From an uncultured Sphingomonadaceae bacterium (GTDB lineage Bacteria; Pseudomonadota; Alphaproteobacteria; Sphingomonadales; Sphingomonadaceae), in the NCBI GenBank assembly GCA_937873035.1, contig CALMVA010000068.1, positions 1 through 64,000 of the forward strand: 64,000 nt of DNA, written 5' to 3'. Of this stretch, positions 33,511 to 45,607 are shown in pieces; within the stretch, counting starts at the first letter, position 1, and the number at the start of each line of letters is the position of its first letter. The translations under genes and the position numbers were made by a program. Below the pieces are notes generated by a model. That model was not told the origin of the DNA and made no database searches. It worked only from the letters and a program-made list of their open reading frames with translations.

Positions 33511-34479
33511 ATGACGCTGGTTGCCCTTCTTTCCAACCCCAACTCGACGGGCAACCGGGCTATCCTGCCGCGCATCCGCTGTTTTTGCGCGCAGCACCCG
33601 GAGATTTTCCATTATGAGGTGGAAGATGCCGGGCAGATTGGTGAGGCGCTGACCTCCATCGCCCGCGTCAAGCCGCGCGTGCTTGTCGTCAATGGCGGCG
33701 ATGGCACGGTGCAGGCCGCGCTCACCGAGCTTTATCACGGCGGCCAGTTCGGCACGGATTTTCCGCCCGTCGCGGTTTTGCCCAATGGCAAGACCAACCT
33801 GATCGCGCTTGATCTGGGGGCTGATGGCGATCCCATCGGCACGCTGGAACGGATCGTCGAAATCGCGCAGGGCAGCCTTAACGACCATGTCGTCGAGCGC
33901 GAGTTGATCGCCCTCACTGAAGGTGAGCAGGGCAACCGCCCCGTGCTGGGGATGTTTCTGGGCGGCGCCGGGCTCGCCGATACGATCCTTTTCTGCCGCG
34001 AAAAACTTTATCCGCTCGGCCTGCCCAATGGTCTGTGCCACGTGCTCGCCGGAATCGCCGCGATTTTCGCCATGCTGACGGGCATCCGCGGCCGCCTGCT
34101 GCCGCCACAACCCAACCCGGTTTCCGTCTCGCTCATCCGCGATGGTGAAGCGACGCGCCGCTTTTCCTTTCTGATCGTCACCACGCTTGAAAAGCTGCTG
34201 ATTACCGGACGGGCCGAACGCAAGGGGCTGATGGGGCTGAAACTGCTGGCCGTCGAGCAATCGGGCCGCGCGCTGACCCGCGCGTTCATGGCCGCGATCG
34301 CAGGCAAGCTTGGGCGCGAAGATGTAGCGGGCGTCCATGTGCAGCATGGCGATGTGATCCGCATCGAAAGCGACAATACCAGCGTGATTCTGGACGGCGA
34401 GACCTTCCACGCCACGCGGGGACGCCCGATTGTGCTGCGGTCAACGCCGCCCCTGCCTTTCCTCAAGATCGCGGCGTGA
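33511..34479 (+). CDS. Diacylglycerol-kinase-fold lipid kinase
   Basis: The 322-residue protein has the DAGK catalytic fold: SNPNSTGNR near 8-16, the nucleotide loop NGGDGTV at 61-67, and VILDGETFH near the C-terminus. The usual GTAN stretch reads LPNGKTNLIA. The family phosphorylates diacylglycerol, sphingosine or ceramide. A Tam41-like nucleotidyltransferase overlaps its stop, which favours diacylglycerol to phosphatidate, but a sphingoid base cannot be excluded in this organism. Confidence 0.85.
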   Translation: MTLVALLSNPNSTGNRAILPRIRCFCAQHPEIFHYEVEDAGQIGEALTSIARVKPRVLVVNGGDGTVQAALTELYHGGQFGTDFPPVAVLPNGKTNLIALDLGADGDPIGTLERIVEIAQGSLNDHVVERELIALTEGEQGNRPVLGMFLGGAGLADTILFCREKLYPLGLPNGLCHVLAGIAAIFAMLTGIRGRLLPPQPNPVSVSLIRDGEATRRFSFLIVTTLEKLLITGRAERKGLMGLKLLAVEQSGRALTRAFMAAIAGKLGREDVAGVHVQHGDVIRIESDNTSVILDGETFHATRGRPIVLRSTPPLPFLKIAA

Positions 34480-35345
34480 CCGCGCTCAAGGCGCTGGTCG
34501 CAGCCGAGCTTGCCCAGCCCGTTCAGCCCCGCATTTCCGAAATGGCCGCCGCCATCGCCGCAGAATATGGCGCAGCCGCCCGCGCGGTGCTCTTTTACGG
34601 CTCATGCCTGCGCGAGCAGCAGCTCGATGGGCTGATGCTCGATTTTTACCTGATCGTCTCCGACTATGACGCCGCTTATCCCAATAGCTGGCTGGCGCGC
34701 GCCAACCGGCTTATTCCGCCCAACGTCTTTCCCTTCACGCGCGATGGTCTGGCCAGCAAATATGCCGTTTTGAGCGAGGCGGACTTTGCCACGCTCAACA
34801 GTGCAGACGCCTCCACCGTTTCGGTCTGGGCACGTTTTGCCCAGCCTGCCCGGCTTGTCTGGTCGGCTGATGAAGAGGCATCCAACCGCGCGATTGATGC
34901 CATCGCGGCAGCCACGCCCACGCTCTTTGCACTGGCACGGCCCATTGCCCCCTCGGCTGCCCCGATGGACATCTGGCGCGCGGGCTTTGCACGGACCTAT
35001 GAATGTGAATTGCGCGCCGAGCGCACGTCCCGCTCAGGATCAATCGTCGATGCAGAGCCGGAACGCTACGCCGCCTTTGGCGCGGCCGTCCCGCTTGAAA
35101 CCACGATGACGCGCCCCGCCGCCGAACGCGCATGGCGGGCGTTGAAACGGCGTGGCAAGCAGATGAGCGTGCTGCGGCTGGCCAAGGCGAGCCTCACCTT
35201 TGCCGGCGGGATCGATTATCTCGCCTGGAAGATCAATCGCCATGCGGGGACGCAAATCGTCATCAAGCCGTGGCAACGGCGCTTTCCGCTGGTTGCCGCC
35301 CTCTTCCTTGTGCCGCAGCTGCTGCGTCAGGGCGCCGTGCGCTGA
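34476..35345 (+). CDS. Tam41-like nucleotidyltransferase, candidate CDP-DAG synthase
   Basis: Starting with GTG overlapping the previous stop (GTGA), this 289-residue protein resembles the mitochondrial phosphatidate cytidylyltransferase Tam41. It has a nucleotidyltransferase loop FYGSCLRE at 40-47 with acidic residues in LMLDFYLIV near 53-61. ASKYAVLSEADF recalls the KYGVVS element of Tam41, and the ending RLAKASLTFAGGIDYLAWK recalls its C-terminus. Tam41 makes CDP-diacylglycerol from phosphatidate and CTP. The comparison is from memory and unverified. The neighbour would supply phosphatidate. Confidence 0.65.
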   Translation: MTALKALVAAELAQPVQPRISEMAAAIAAEYGAAARAVLFYGSCLREQQLDGLMLDFYLIVSDYDAAYPNSWLARANRLIPPNVFPFTRDGLASKYAVLSEADFATLNSADASTVSVWARFAQPARLVWSADEEASNRAIDAIAAATPTLFALARPIAPSAAPMDIWRAGFARTYECELRAERTSRSGSIVDAEPERYAAFGAAVPLETTMTRPAAERAWRALKRRGKQMSVLRLAKASLTFAGGIDYLAWKINRHAGTQIVIKPWQRRFPLVAALFLVPQLLRQGAVR

Positions 35346-40666: not shown

Positions 40667-40909
40667 ATGACCGATCGCCAAGCCGTTTATGACGAGGTCG
40701 CGGGCCTCATCGACCCGTTCAACAAAAAGGGCGTCGCCCTTTCCGAAGCCACCACCTTCCAGCATGATCTGGAATGGGACAGCCTGACCGTGATGGATTT
40801 CGTCGCCGCCGTCGAAGATGAGTTCGACATCATCATCACGATGAATATGCAGGCCGAGATTGAAACCGTTGGCCAGCTTGTCGATGCGGTCATCAAGCTC
40901 AAGGCTTGA
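40667..40909 (+). CDS. Acyl carrier protein, dedicated to sphingolipid synthesis
   Basis: This 80-residue acyl carrier protein has the phosphopantetheine serine Ser39 in EWDSLTVMDFV. The housekeeping ACP usually reads GADSLD, so this is a specialised copy. It sits 90 bp before the serine palmitoyltransferase gene. In Caulobacter an ACP next to spt (AcpR) feeds the acyl chain to the enzyme, so the same role is likely here. AAGGAAG precedes the ATG. Confidence 0.88.
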   Translation: MTDRQAVYDEVAGLIDPFNKKGVALSEATTFQHDLEWDSLTVMDFVAAVEDEFDIIITMNMQAEIETVGQLVDAVIKLKA

Positions 40910-40999
40910 GCGAAACTCTGTCGCCGGTCGGAATGAACGTCCGGGCGGCACGGGTCCGGTGGCAGGCGTTGGGCGCGACGCAACGGGAAGACTGAAAAA

Positions 41000-42205
41000 A
41001 TGACCGATCTTTTCTCCAAGTTCGATCCGCTGATCCAGCAGCGCGAAGGCCTGCTCGCTACCGGCGTGCGTGACCCCTTCTCGCTGGTCATGGAAGAGGT
41101 GAAGTCTCCCACGGTTGCCATGTGCAATGGCCGCGAGACCATTCTCCTTGGTACCTACAACTATATGGGCATGACCTTTGATCCCGACGTGATCCACGCG
41201 GGCAAGGACGCACTCGACCGCTTTGGCGCGGGCACCACGGGCAGCCGGGTGCTCAATGGCACCTATCAGGGGCATCGCGAAGTTGAAGAGGCGCTCAAGG
41301 AATTTTACGCCATGGATCACGCCATGGTGTTCTCGACCGGCTATCAGGCCAATCTCGGTATCATCTCAACGGTTGCGGGCAAGGGTGATTACATCATCCT
41401 CGACATCGACAGCCACGCCTCCATCTGGGATGGCTGCAAGATGGGCGATGCCGAAGTCGTCCCCTTCAAGCACAATGACATCGAAGCGCTTGAAAAGCGG
41501 CTGAAGCGGCTGCCGGCCGATGCGGGCAAGCTCGTGGTGCTTGAAGGTGTCTATTCGATGCTGGGCGACATCGCGCCCTTGAAGGAGATGATCCGCGTCT
41601 CCAAGGAAAATGGCGCGATGGTGCTGGTCGATGAAGCGCACTCGATGGGCTTTATCGGCCCCAATGGCCGCGGCGTCGCCGAAGAACAGGGTGTTCTGGA
41701 TGATGTCGATTTCGTCATCGGCACCTTTTCCAAGAGCGTCGGCACGGTGGGTGGCTTCTGCGTTTCGAACCACCCGAAGTTTGAGATTTTGCGCCTTGTC
41801 TGCCGCCCCTATGTCTTCACGGCGTCGCTGCCGCCAAGCGTGGTGGCAACCGCTGCCACATCGATCCGCAAGCTGATGCACGCAGACAACAAGCGCGCCC
41901 ATCTGTGGGAAAATTCGCGCCGTCTGCATGGGGGGCTGAAAGAACTCGGCTTCCAGCTTGGCACCGAAACGCCGCAAAGCGCCATCATTGCGGTCATCAT
42001 GCCCGACCTCGAACGCGGCGCGATGATGTGGGAAGCTCTGCTCGACAACGGCCTGTATGTGAATCTCGCCCGTCCGCCAGCGACGCCTGCGGGGATGACG
42101 CTGCTGCGCTGCTCGCTCTGTGCTGAACACTCGGCGGAACAGGTGGAGGATATTCTCACGCGGTTTGCAGCGGCGGGCCGGGCAACGGGCATCATCGCGG
42201 GATGA
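41000..42205 (+). CDS. spt: Serine palmitoyltransferase
   Basis: This soluble PLP enzyme condenses serine with an acyl thioester to 3-ketosphinganine, the first committed step of sphingolipids. The 401-residue sequence agrees over most of its length with the Sphingomonas paucimobilis enzyme as I recall it. Shared stretches include TILLGTYNYMGMTFDPDV, GVYSMLGDIAPLKEM and VDEAHSMGF. The PLP lysine is Lys245 in GTFSKSVGT. GGGAAGA precedes the ATG. A response regulator gene overlaps its stop by ATGA. Confidence 0.97.
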   Translation: MTDLFSKFDPLIQQREGLLATGVRDPFSLVMEEVKSPTVAMCNGRETILLGTYNYMGMTFDPDVIHAGKDALDRFGAGTTGSRVLNGTYQGHREVEEALKEFYAMDHAMVFSTGYQANLGIISTVAGKGDYIILDIDSHASIWDGCKMGDAEVVPFKHNDIEALEKRLKRLPADAGKLVVLEGVYSMLGDIAPLKEMIRVSKENGAMVLVDEAHSMGFIGPNGRGVAEEQGVLDDVDFVIGTFSKSVGTVGGFCVSNHPKFEILRLVCRPYVFTASLPPSVVATAATSIRKLMHADNKRAHLWENSRRLHGGLKELGFQLGTETPQSAIIAVIMPDLERGAMMWEALLDNGLYVNLARPPATPAGMTLLRCSLCAEHSAEQVEDILTRFAAAGRATGIIAG

Positions 42206-42549
42206 TCCTTGTCGTCGATGACGATGCCCGCATCCGGCGCGCAACGGCGGGCGCGCTTTCGGCACTGGGGCATGAGGTCGTGTCCGCATCCGGCGGTGCC
42301 GAAGCACTCGGCCTGTGCGCTGACCGGCCCGAAATCAGTCTTGTCGTCACCGATGTGCTGATGCCGGGGATGCGCGGGCCGGAGCTTGTCTCCAAAGCTC
42401 GCGCCCTCCGCCCCGACCTGCGCTTCATCTATATCAGCGGCGATATTGGCGATACGCCGCCCGACGCCTTTGGCGGCTGGCCGCTCCTGCCCAAGCCGTT
42501 CACCGCAGCTTCGCTCAGCGAAGTTGTGGGTCAGGCCCTGGCGGGGTAG
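42202..42549 (+). CDS. Stand-alone response regulator receiver protein
   Basis: This 115-residue single receiver domain has the acidic pocket DDD at 6-8, the phospho-acceptor Asp51 in VTDVLMPG, Ser79 and Lys98 in LPKPF. It has no output domain. The gene overlaps the spt stop codon by ATGA, so it is translated from the same message. No histidine kinase is nearby. Its partner and target are unknown; the coupling to a sphingolipid gene is unusual. Confidence 0.9.
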   Translation: MILVVDDDARIRRATAGALSALGHEVVSASGGAEALGLCADRPEISLVVTDVLMPGMRGPELVSKARALRPDLRFIYISGDIGDTPPDAFGGWPLLPKPFTAASLSEVVGQALAG

Positions 42550-42670: not shown

Positions 42671-44278
42671 TCACCGCCGGATGAGCCGCCCGAAGAAGGA
42701 GCGGTCCGCCAGGACTTCCTGCGCGCAATTATGCCCCGGCGCGCCTGTGACGCCACCGCCCGGATGCGTGCCCGCACCACACATATAAAGCCCGTCCAGC
42801 GGCCCGCGATAGGCACCATTGCCCAGCACCGGGCGCGCCGACCACAATTGGTCGAGCGACATATTGCCGTGCATAATGTCGCCACCCACAAGCCCGAAAC
42901 GACGCTCCAGACCTTTGGGGCTGAGGATCTGCCGCCCAAGGATCGACGCGCGGAAGCCCGGCGCATAGGCCTCAACCGTGTCGATGATCGTCTCTGCCGC
43001 CTTGCCTTCCTCGGTGTCCCAGTCCCGCCCGTCAGGAAGCTCAGGCGCGAATTGCTGGCAGAAGAGCGAAGCGACGTGCTGGCCGTCAGGCGCAAGGCTA
43101 TCATCCACCGTTGAGGGAATGAGCATTTCGACAATCGGCTTTTGGGACCAGCCCTGCGCCTTGGCGTCGATGAATGCCTGATCCATATAGTCGAGCGTCG
43201 GCGCGATGATGATGCCCGACTGGTGGTGCTCGCCCGCCTCCGGCAGGCAGGTGAACCTGGGCAATTCAGACAGCGCCACATTCATGCGGAACGTGCCGGA
43301 ACCGACCTTGAAGGCCTTGATGCGGCGGCGGAATTCGGGTGCAAGGTCGCCTTCGGCAAACATCCGTTCGTAAAGCAGCTTGGGCCCGACATTGGCGATG
43401 ACGCGATCCGCGATCACTTCCTCTCCGCTTTCAAGCTTCACCCCGGCAACCTTGCCGCCATTGACGAGCACGCGCGACACCGGCGCTTCAAGGCTGATCT
43501 CGACGCCGAGCGCCGTCACGACGCGCGCCATGGCCTGCGTGATCGCGCCCATGCCGCCCACGCTATGGCCCCACGCGCCCTTTTTGCCATTCACCTCGCC
43601 AAAAACGTGGTGGAGCAGCACATAGGCGCTGCCCGGCGTATCGGGCGAGGCATAATTGCCGACCACGGCATCAAAACCGAACGCGGCCTTCACCGCCTCG
43701 CTTTCAAACCAGCTATCCAGCAGCGTGCGTGCCGACTTGGTGAACAGGTCAAGCACGTCACGCTGCCGGTCGATGGTCAGTCCAGCAAGCTTGCGACCCT
43801 GAAGGGCGCCATCGATAAGCGTTTTAAGGCCACCGCCCAGATTGGGCGGGGTCTTCATCGCGAGATCACGCAGCACATCGGCCACGCCTTCAAGCGAGTC
43901 ATAATATTCGGGAAGAATATTGGCATCATGCGCCGAAAAGCGACGGAACTCCGCCTGTGTGCGCTCCATGCCGCCACCGAGCTTGAGATAGCCGCCATCT
44001 TCTTGCGGCAGGAAGTTGGAGATGGGCCGCTCGATCACGCGATAGCCCTCATCTTCCAGCTTCATATCGCGGATGACCTGCGGCTGGAGCAGGCTGACCG
44101 TGTAGCTCGCCACCGAATTGCGAAATCCCGGATGAAACTCCTCGGTAACCGCCGCCCCACCCACGACATCGCGCCGTTCGACAAGGCGAACCTTCAGCCC
44201 CGCGCGCGCAAGGTAAAAGGCGCAGACAAGACCATTATGGCCTGCACCGATGATGACGGCATCGTATTTCTTGGTCAT
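42671..44278 (-). CDS. FAD-dependent oxidoreductase, PYROXD2-like
   Basis: This 535-residue protein is an FAD-dependent oxidoreductase of the phytoene-desaturase-like group that includes mammalian PYROXD2. The FAD loop is VIIGAGHNGLVCA at 8-20. CGAGTHPGGGVTGAPGHN near the C-terminus is the family signature. The substrate is unknown. The ATG at 44278 has GGAGGAAG just upstream. Inverted repeats of family B flank the gene on both sides. The Rieske gene lies upstream on the same strand. Confidence 0.88.
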   Translation of the reverse strand: MTKKYDAVIIGAGHNGLVCAFYLARAGLKVRLVERRDVVGGAAVTEEFHPGFRNSVASYTVSLLQPQVIRDMKLEDEGYRVIERPISNFLPQEDGGYLKLGGGMERTQAEFRRFSAHDANILPEYYDSLEGVADVLRDLAMKTPPNLGGGLKTLIDGALQGRKLAGLTIDRQRDVLDLFTKSARTLLDSWFESEAVKAAFGFDAVVGNYASPDTPGSAYVLLHHVFGEVNGKKGAWGHSVGGMGAITQAMARVVTALGVEISLEAPVSRVLVNGGKVAGVKLESGEEVIADRVIANVGPKLLYERMFAEGDLAPEFRRRIKAFKVGSGTFRMNVALSELPRFTCLPEAGEHHQSGIIIAPTLDYMDQAFIDAKAQGWSQKPIVEMLIPSTVDDSLAPDGQHVASLFCQQFAPELPDGRDWDTEEGKAAETIIDTVEAYAPGFRASILGRQILSPKGLERRFGLVGGDIMHGNMSLDQLWSARPVLGNGAYRGPLDGLYMCGAGTHPGGGVTGAPGHNCAQEVLADRSFFGRLIRR

Positions 44279-44305
44279 GCTTCCTCCTGAACTGTATCTC
44301 CCTCC

Positions 44306-44414
44306 CGTTTGGGCTGAGCCTGTCGAAGCCCTGTCCTTCTTGCCCGGCAAACAGGCAAGGACAGCCGTTGATGCTCCGCATCGCCTTCGGCCCCGACAAA
44401 GCTCAGCCCAAATG
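44306..44414. repeat. Inverted repeat (family B), copy 2
   Basis: TTTGGGCTGAGCCTGTCG (44308-44325) faces a matching arm ending in CTCAGCCCAAA (44402-44412). Inside is a further inverted pair CTGTCCTT and AAGGACAG. It lies between the PYROXD2-like and Rieske genes. Compare 42571-42657. Confidence 0.75.
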
Positions 44415-44428
44415 GAGGGTGCTCTTTT

Positions 44429-45607
44429 CTATCTCTTGCTCCACCCGGCCGCCGGGCGCTCTTCCTGCCGCGCTTCGGGGATGATCTCGCGCATCTTGCG
44501 GCAGAAGCTTTTCAGGCAGACTTCCTTGTCTGACAGCGGCCCCATAGAGAAGCTGCGGCTCGCCATGCCTTCCTGCACGCGCGTGATGAGGGCTGTGTCT
44601 TCCAGATTGACCTGCCGGTTGATCCGCCAGTTGAGGTAGCGCGCGGCGCGCATTTCTCGGCGCCAAGGATCATCAGGGGCATCGGGCAGCACATAGCTGA
44701 TCTCGCGGATAAGGCAGGTGGTGGGGCCGGTTGGCAGCCACTGCATGAAATCCACCTGATCGGGGTAGATGTCGAACGCGACCGTGGGCCACAGCTTGAA
44801 ATAGAGCCAGTGTCGCTGGCTGGCCTCCGGTAGATGCGGCACGGGCGGCAGCAGCTTCTGGTAGAGCCGCTCGGACCAGTTGGCCGACGGCCGGTCTTCC
44901 AGATCGCCCCACATCCGGTCCACATGGTCTTGCGCCTCGATGCCATAGCTCTTGCCAAACAGGCGCGTCAGGCCGGGGTGCGACACGGGGATGTGCAGCC
45001 CGTCTGAATAATTGTCGCCCACATTCTTCCAGTTGACGGTGCGTGCGCGCATCGTGACGCGGCCAAGCGCCGTCAACTCCTCAAAGCGATAGGGCGCGAC
45101 CATCGCTTCATAAGGCGCCATCATCTCGGCCACCGAAGGCCCGCCGCCTTCGAGCCGAACGAAGATGAAACCGCGCCAGATTTCACACTCGACCGGAGCC
45201 AGCCCCGCCTTGCCCTTGTCGAGCGTGGGGTAAGAGGCGCTATCGGGCACACCGGTCAACCGGCCATCCAGCTCATAGACCCAGGCGTGATAGGGGCAGA
45301 CGAGCTTTTTGGCGCAGCCATGCGCCCCATCGACCAGACGGCTGCCGCGATGGCGGCAGACATTGGTGAAGGCGCGCACATCGCCATCGGCCCCACGCAC
45401 CACGATGACGCTTTCCCCAATATAATCGAGGCTGTGCCAATCCCCCGTATTGGGCACGTCGTTCACATGGCACACCACCTGCCAACTGGGGCGGAAGACG
45501 CGATCTTCCTCGACACCCGCAAATTCAGGGTCATGATAGGTCCAGGCCGGCAGGCTCCAGCCTTCCAGCGGATCCGTCTCAATGGAGTTGACGCTACCCA
45601 ATGCCAT
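44429..45607 (-). CDS. Rieske non-heme iron oxygenase, large subunit
   Basis: This is the catalytic subunit of a ring-hydroxylating or N-demethylating oxygenase, 392 residues. The Rieske 2Fe-2S ligands are Cys84-x-His86 (NVCRHRG) and Cys104-x2-His107 (CPYHAWVY). The catalytic iron site is in NVGDNYSDGLHIPVSH, with His205 and His210. The ATG at 45607 is just inside the regulator region. The divergent regulator looks like BetI, so a quaternary amine substrate, as in GbcA-type enzymes, is possible. No reductase subunit is adjacent. Confidence 0.88.
   Translation of the reverse strand: MALGSVNSIETDPLEGWSLPAWTYHDPEFAGVEEDRVFRPSWQVVCHVNDVPNTGDWHSLDYIGESVIVVRGADGDVRAFTNVCRHRGSRLVDGAHGCAKKLVCPYHAWVYELDGRLTGVPDSASYPTLDKGKAGLAPVECEIWRGFIFVRLEGGGPSVAEMMAPYEAMVAPYRFEELTALGRVTMRARTVNWKNVGDNYSDGLHIPVSHPGLTRLFGKSYGIEAQDHVDRMWGDLEDRPSANWSERLYQKLLPPVPHLPEASQRHWLYFKLWPTVAFDIYPDQVDFMQWLPTGPTTCLIREISYVLPDAPDDPWRREMRAARYLNWRINRQVNLEDTALITRVQEGMASRSFSMGPLSDKEVCLKSFCRKMREIIPEARQEERPAAGWSKR

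Follow-up and report, generated by a model that had tools for sequence, protein, structure and literature searches.

The window analyzed here, a 64,000-nucleotide stretch of contig C68 from a 2.77 Mb draft genome (G000) in the genus of Chakrabartia godavariana, carries acpR, spt, and a receiver gene as three consecutive genes (Table 1). By its Pfam match, the 80-aa acpR product falls in the phosphopantetheine family; its phosphopantetheine-site serine lies in a DSL motif, and the gene adjoins spt in nearly all family genomes surveyed. The 401-aa Spt, whose PLP lysine lies within TFSKS, matches a solved serine palmitoyltransferase and exceeds the cut-off of the curated alphaproteobacterial model NCBIfam NF047603 (813 vs 670 bits), and was thus identified as an alphaproteobacterial serine palmitoyltransferase. 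For the third gene, PF00072 was the sole domain detected (49.4 bits, cut-off 30.2). With one receiver domain, a complete acceptor pocket (D6/D7, D51, S79, and K98), and no output domain, its 115-aa product has the make-up of a single-domain response regulator. The first-pass annotation had described the ACP, spt, and the single-domain receiver as consecutive and linked by an ATGA overlap; the coordinates, reading frames, and overlap were all confirmed, as were the family identities of the three products through matches to Pfam, NF047603, PDB 2x8u, and PF00072.

Table 1 Features of the acpR–spt–receiver locus and of nearby genes in the window.
Feature	Position	Strand	Description	Evidence
acpR	40667..40909	+	Specialised acyl carrier protein, sphingolipid synthesis; phosphopantetheine site S39	Pfam PP-binding 1.2e-08
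spt	41000..42205	+	Serine palmitoyltransferase; PLP lysine K245	NF047603 813 bits; PDB 2x8u 4.5e-212
Single-domain receiver	42202..42549	+	115 aa, D51; start overlaps spt stop by 4 nt	PF00072
Downstream gene pair	42671..45595	-	Phytoene-desaturase-like FAD oxidoreductase and Rieske ring-hydroxylating oxygenase	
Lipid kinase gene pair	33511..35345		DAGK-type lipid kinase (322 aa) adjoining a 289-aa protein; overlap 4 nt	PF00781 (kinase)

The receiver ATG (42202–42204) lies across the spt stop TGA (42203–42205). Four-base gene overlaps are common in bacteria, so that the ATGA overlap by itself indicates just a probable co-expression of spt and the receiver. A promoter and terminator scan returned nothing above chance. 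Among the surrounding genes, the order of the phytoene-desaturase-like and Rieske oxygenase genes is conserved in three other loci (L048, L051, and L053). The DAGK-type lipid kinase, which possibly represents a putative ceramide kinase step, adjoins a 289-aa protein for which Pfam gave no match; in many relatives, these two genes immediately follow spt (or the hybrid kinase) on the opposite strand, which points to a local rearrangement in the window's genus.

The receiver gene within one genus

The position after spt could be read in 11 of the 13 genomes of the window's genus, and the lone receiver adjoined spt in eight of these (G000, its congener G001, G003, G005, G008, G009, G010, and G011), a count that includes G005, whose spt is interrupted by a contig break, and G011, where the end of spt alone is present. 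In each of the eight, the start codon of the receiver gene meets or overlaps the stop codon of spt, as ATGA, TAATG, or GTGA where the bases could be read. This start–stop contact means that the pairing of spt and receiver in the genus exceeds chance, and, judging from the sequences, the coupling is kept while the overlap itself changes.

The three remaining readable genomes (G004, G006, and G012) have no lone receiver. In G006, the SPT is 91% identical to the window's, yet the next gene, on the minus strand, ends ~30 nt past spt and the receiver gene is missing altogether, which indicates that the receiver is dispensable. The first-pass annotation had made its proposed regulatory link depend on the receiver being found beside spt in close relatives, and that link, in its lone-receiver form, is weakened by G006. 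One further case stands apart (L234 of G003, and L016): G003 is placed in the same genus, while its SPT is just 72–73% identical to the window's. Despite this divergent SPT, the lone receiver of G003 groups with the others in one clade, and the operon may have been exchanged.

All eight copies of the lone receiver retain the acceptor-pocket residues and intact reading frames. In pairwise comparisons across five species, dN/dS ranged from 0.05 to 0.38 for the receiver, while the same genome pairs gave 0.03 to 0.12 for spt, making the receiver values ~1.4- to 8-fold those of spt. At the level of codon substitutions, these values show a receiver under purifying selection. An AlphaFold model of the protein (mean pLDDT 94.9) displays a receiver fold in which alpha4 spans four residues (87–90), and fold searches with this model retrieved ordinary receivers, reflecting the common receiver fold and nothing more specific.

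A hybrid histidine kinase behind spt in relatives

We then surveyed 149 family genomes, 147 of which carried spt. In 36 of these 147, distributed across 25 genera, spt is immediately followed by the gene of a hybrid histidine kinase (CHASE3-HisKA-HATPase-REC) in the same orientation, with 49–247 nt between aligned ends. In named relatives (Sphingopyxis, Sphingobium, and Sphingomonas sp. LaA6.9), for instance, the gene after spt encodes a protein of 656–674 aa that combines CHASE3, HisKA, and HATPase_c domains with a receiver at its C-terminus. The kinase search scored eight candidates per genome, and the 36 best full-length matches across the 149 genomes were all located immediately downstream of spt, with the next three found elsewhere in their genomes. 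When the downstream flanks of the remaining spt genomes were read, three carried a lone receiver (all from the window's genus), 106 carried neither form, and two ended too soon. With tblastn, which a strongly diverged receiver could escape, no lone receiver was found outside the window's genus in the readable genomes among the 147. Accordingly, we rejected the lone receiver as a general sphingomonad feature: a downstream receiver gene beside spt, suggested earlier as a pattern to look for across sphingomonads, holds within the genus (8 of 11 genomes) and fails elsewhere in the family.

The hybrid kinase itself has no detectable ortholog of its kinase part in G000. A relocation elsewhere in the window genome was considered and rejected, the best match being a CckA-like kinase encoded by a separate gene on another contig (C64). 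No kinase gene adjoins the window receiver, although 17 places in the genome score over the HisKA family cut-off and could include a phosphate donor. Of the curated families, CckA ranks among the nearest to the core of the spt-linked kinase (334 bits for the copy at L049 and 278 bits for that at L054) and also to the lone receiver, for which the NCBIfam CckA model yields 69.1 bits against a cut-off of 1000 by matching the receiver only, the kinase core being absent. Unlike CckA, the spt-linked kinase falls below the curated 1000-bit cut-off, has a CHASE3 sensor domain, and has a receiver that forms a separate clade. The two-component link to spt proposed in the first-pass annotation is supported by conservation, mainly in the form of the hybrid kinase, whereas the lone form is confined to a single genus. 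A more fitting description of the finding would be a hybrid histidine kinase linked to spt in sphingomonads and probably reduced to its receiver in one genus.

Origin of the lone receiver

To place the lone receivers, we compared six of them with HMMs of spt-kinase receivers, CckA receivers, and receivers of other hybrid kinases. Five of the six scored 101–107 bits with the spt-kinase model, against 75–83 bits with the CckA model, while the divergent G003 copy scored 89 and 46 bits, respectively, so that the spt-kinase model led the CckA model by 21–43 bits. The other-hybrid-kinase model, built from a small set of five sequences, gave 86–90 bits, including 87.6 for G003, near-equal to its spt-kinase score. 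The lone and spt-kinase receivers also have in common an AFGG/AFGDH-x-x-L-x-KPF stretch and, by alignment, a similarly short alpha4 region.

Earlier trees, with their distant paralogs and overlong branches, were replaced by a trimmed one. Here, all eight lone receivers cluster together (support 98/90); this clade groups with the spt-kinase receivers (91/88), is nested among them (92/84), and stays separate from CckA (100/99). An earlier tree likewise joined lone and spt-kinase receivers (90/81), with the lone clade as their sister rather than nested inside. In the SPT tree, the lone-receiver genomes appear at three places with weak support; their receivers, by contrast, form one clade. In AU tests, neither a grouping of the lone receivers with CckA (p 0.19) nor a clade made up of the spt-kinase receivers alone (p 0.20) was rejected, and the grouping of lone receivers with other kinases obtained p 0.06. 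Since genomic position, HMM scores, and tree placement agree, a common origin of the lone and spt-kinase receivers is likely.

Two other histories have to be weighed against this picture. The receiver might have been captured independently from CckA or another kinase and have landed beside spt by chance, as could be suspected from CckA being its closest receiver within the window genome (38% identity), from the CckA receiver 6tne being the nearest solved structure by sequence (~40% identical), and from the AU result for the CckA grouping. A chance landing would have to match the very position occupied by the spt-linked kinase in relatives, and the higher HMM scores and the tree placement both lie with the spt-kinase receiver, which makes such a capture distinctly unlikely in our view. 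Alternatively, the order of events may have been reversed, with an ancestral lone receiver and a sensor kinase later inserted between spt and the receiver. The sister position in the earlier tree and the AU value for spt-kinase receivers forming a clade of their own would fit this order, but the best tree nests the lone clade among the spt-kinase receivers, and we regard this history as very unlikely. The kinase form occurs in 25 genera, against a single genus for the lone form, a distribution that favors loss of the kinase part as the direction of change.

Candidate roles and comparison with known systems

Taken together, we consider it probable, with some reserve, that the lone receiver descends from the receiver domain of an ancestral spt-linked hybrid kinase and still works as a single-domain regulator, phosphorylated by another protein. 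In the ancestor, a hybrid histidine kinase with a CHASE3 sensor, HisKA, HATPase, and REC would have been encoded directly after acpR–spt. The sensor and kinase parts would then have been lost in the window's genus, leaving the C-terminal receiver as a short gene translationally coupled to spt. Produced in step with Spt, this receiver could obtain phosphate on D51 from another histidine kinase or a phosphotransfer protein, and may act through contact with a partner protein or by accepting phosphate within a circuit related to the envelope or to sphingolipids.

The first-pass annotation had instead suggested control of the enzyme or a partner through phosphorylation, read here as a receiver that, once phosphorylated, sets enzyme activity directly by binding to Spt or AcpR. 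The tight coupling to spt is consistent with such a role, and a precedent exists in Myxococcus xanthus, where the single-domain receiver EpsW activates a biosynthetic enzyme, the glycosyl transferase EpsZ, by contact (PMC12802240). Like the window receiver, EpsW is a receiver-only protein linked with a biosynthetic enzyme; the described target of EpsW~P, however, is a phosphoglycosyl transferase within the Dif system, whereas contact of the window receiver with Spt or AcpR is a prediction. Direct control of SPT or AcpR is thus possible, but most relatives with the same Spt and AcpR lack the receiver, and 36 genomes have the related receiver built into a membrane kinase, so that this model appears unlikely. 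We gave a similarly low probability to a dedicated sphingomonad circuit, in which a CHASE3 kinase co-made with SPT would sense the envelope and its phosphorylated receiver would adjust SPT or AcpR directly, the window's genus using the receiver alone with a different kinase. In alphaproteobacteria, single-domain receivers also serve as shuttles or sinks for phosphate (PMC5964349). For a receiver excised from a hybrid kinase, such a function is no less fitting than direct Spt control. The receiver could also be a neutral or decaying remnant that hitch-hikes behind spt without a present role and is soon lost, as in G006. Its absence from G004 and G012 as well and its faster evolution relative to Spt, with dN/dS reaching 0.38, would agree with decay. 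We nevertheless hold this improbable, because the frame is intact and the acceptor pocket full in every copy, dN/dS stays well below 1, and the start–stop coupling persists although the overlap sequence has changed.

Phosphosphingolipid genes and clusters have been described (PMC11324152), as has an acpR–spt operon in Rhodobacteria (PMC9386255). In the operons reported for Caulobacter and Sphingomonas wittichii (PMC9386255, PMC11324152), AcpR likewise directly precedes spt and the enzyme families are the same; unlike the window, the main text of these two papers includes no histidine kinase or response regulator. More broadly, no relevant paper linking spt or sphingolipids to a histidine kinase or response regulator was found in the open-access literature searched, and the novelty of the spt-linked kinase is accordingly provisional. 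The earlier statement that no case of this kind had been described needs to be divided: control of a biosynthetic enzyme by a single-domain receiver does have a precedent in EpsW–EpsZ (PMC12802240), while for spt-linked signaling no description was found. The same literature yielded no description of a regulator of the first committed sphingolipid step. Sphingolipids seem essential in some LPS-lacking bacteria, e.g., Sphingomonas koreensis (PMC11324152). A hybrid kinase retained directly behind spt in 25 genera represents a testable candidate regulator of sphingolipid synthesis, which may here be tied to a signaling system without a description in the literature searched. The lone receiver would be a natural kinase-less version of it, separating the role of the receiver from that of the sensor.

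Two other types of receiver were compared with the window receiver. SdrG/MrrA of the general stress response are also receiver-only alphaproteobacterial proteins; an assignment to this type was rejected, as the PFxFATG(G/Y) motif (PMC5964349) is absent and the window protein reads PKPFTAASL. The receivers encoded upstream of acpR in Novosphingobium-type genomes were likewise rejected as orthologs, being DivK (PDB 1m5t, 1.2e-36). At 60 of the 130 loci examined, of Novosphingobium and Erythrobacteraceae type, the same-strand gene upstream of acpR is DivK (e.g., L091:3156-3533). This cell-division single-domain regulator, often 45–160 nt from acpR, is a second, different receiver gene beside acpR–spt.
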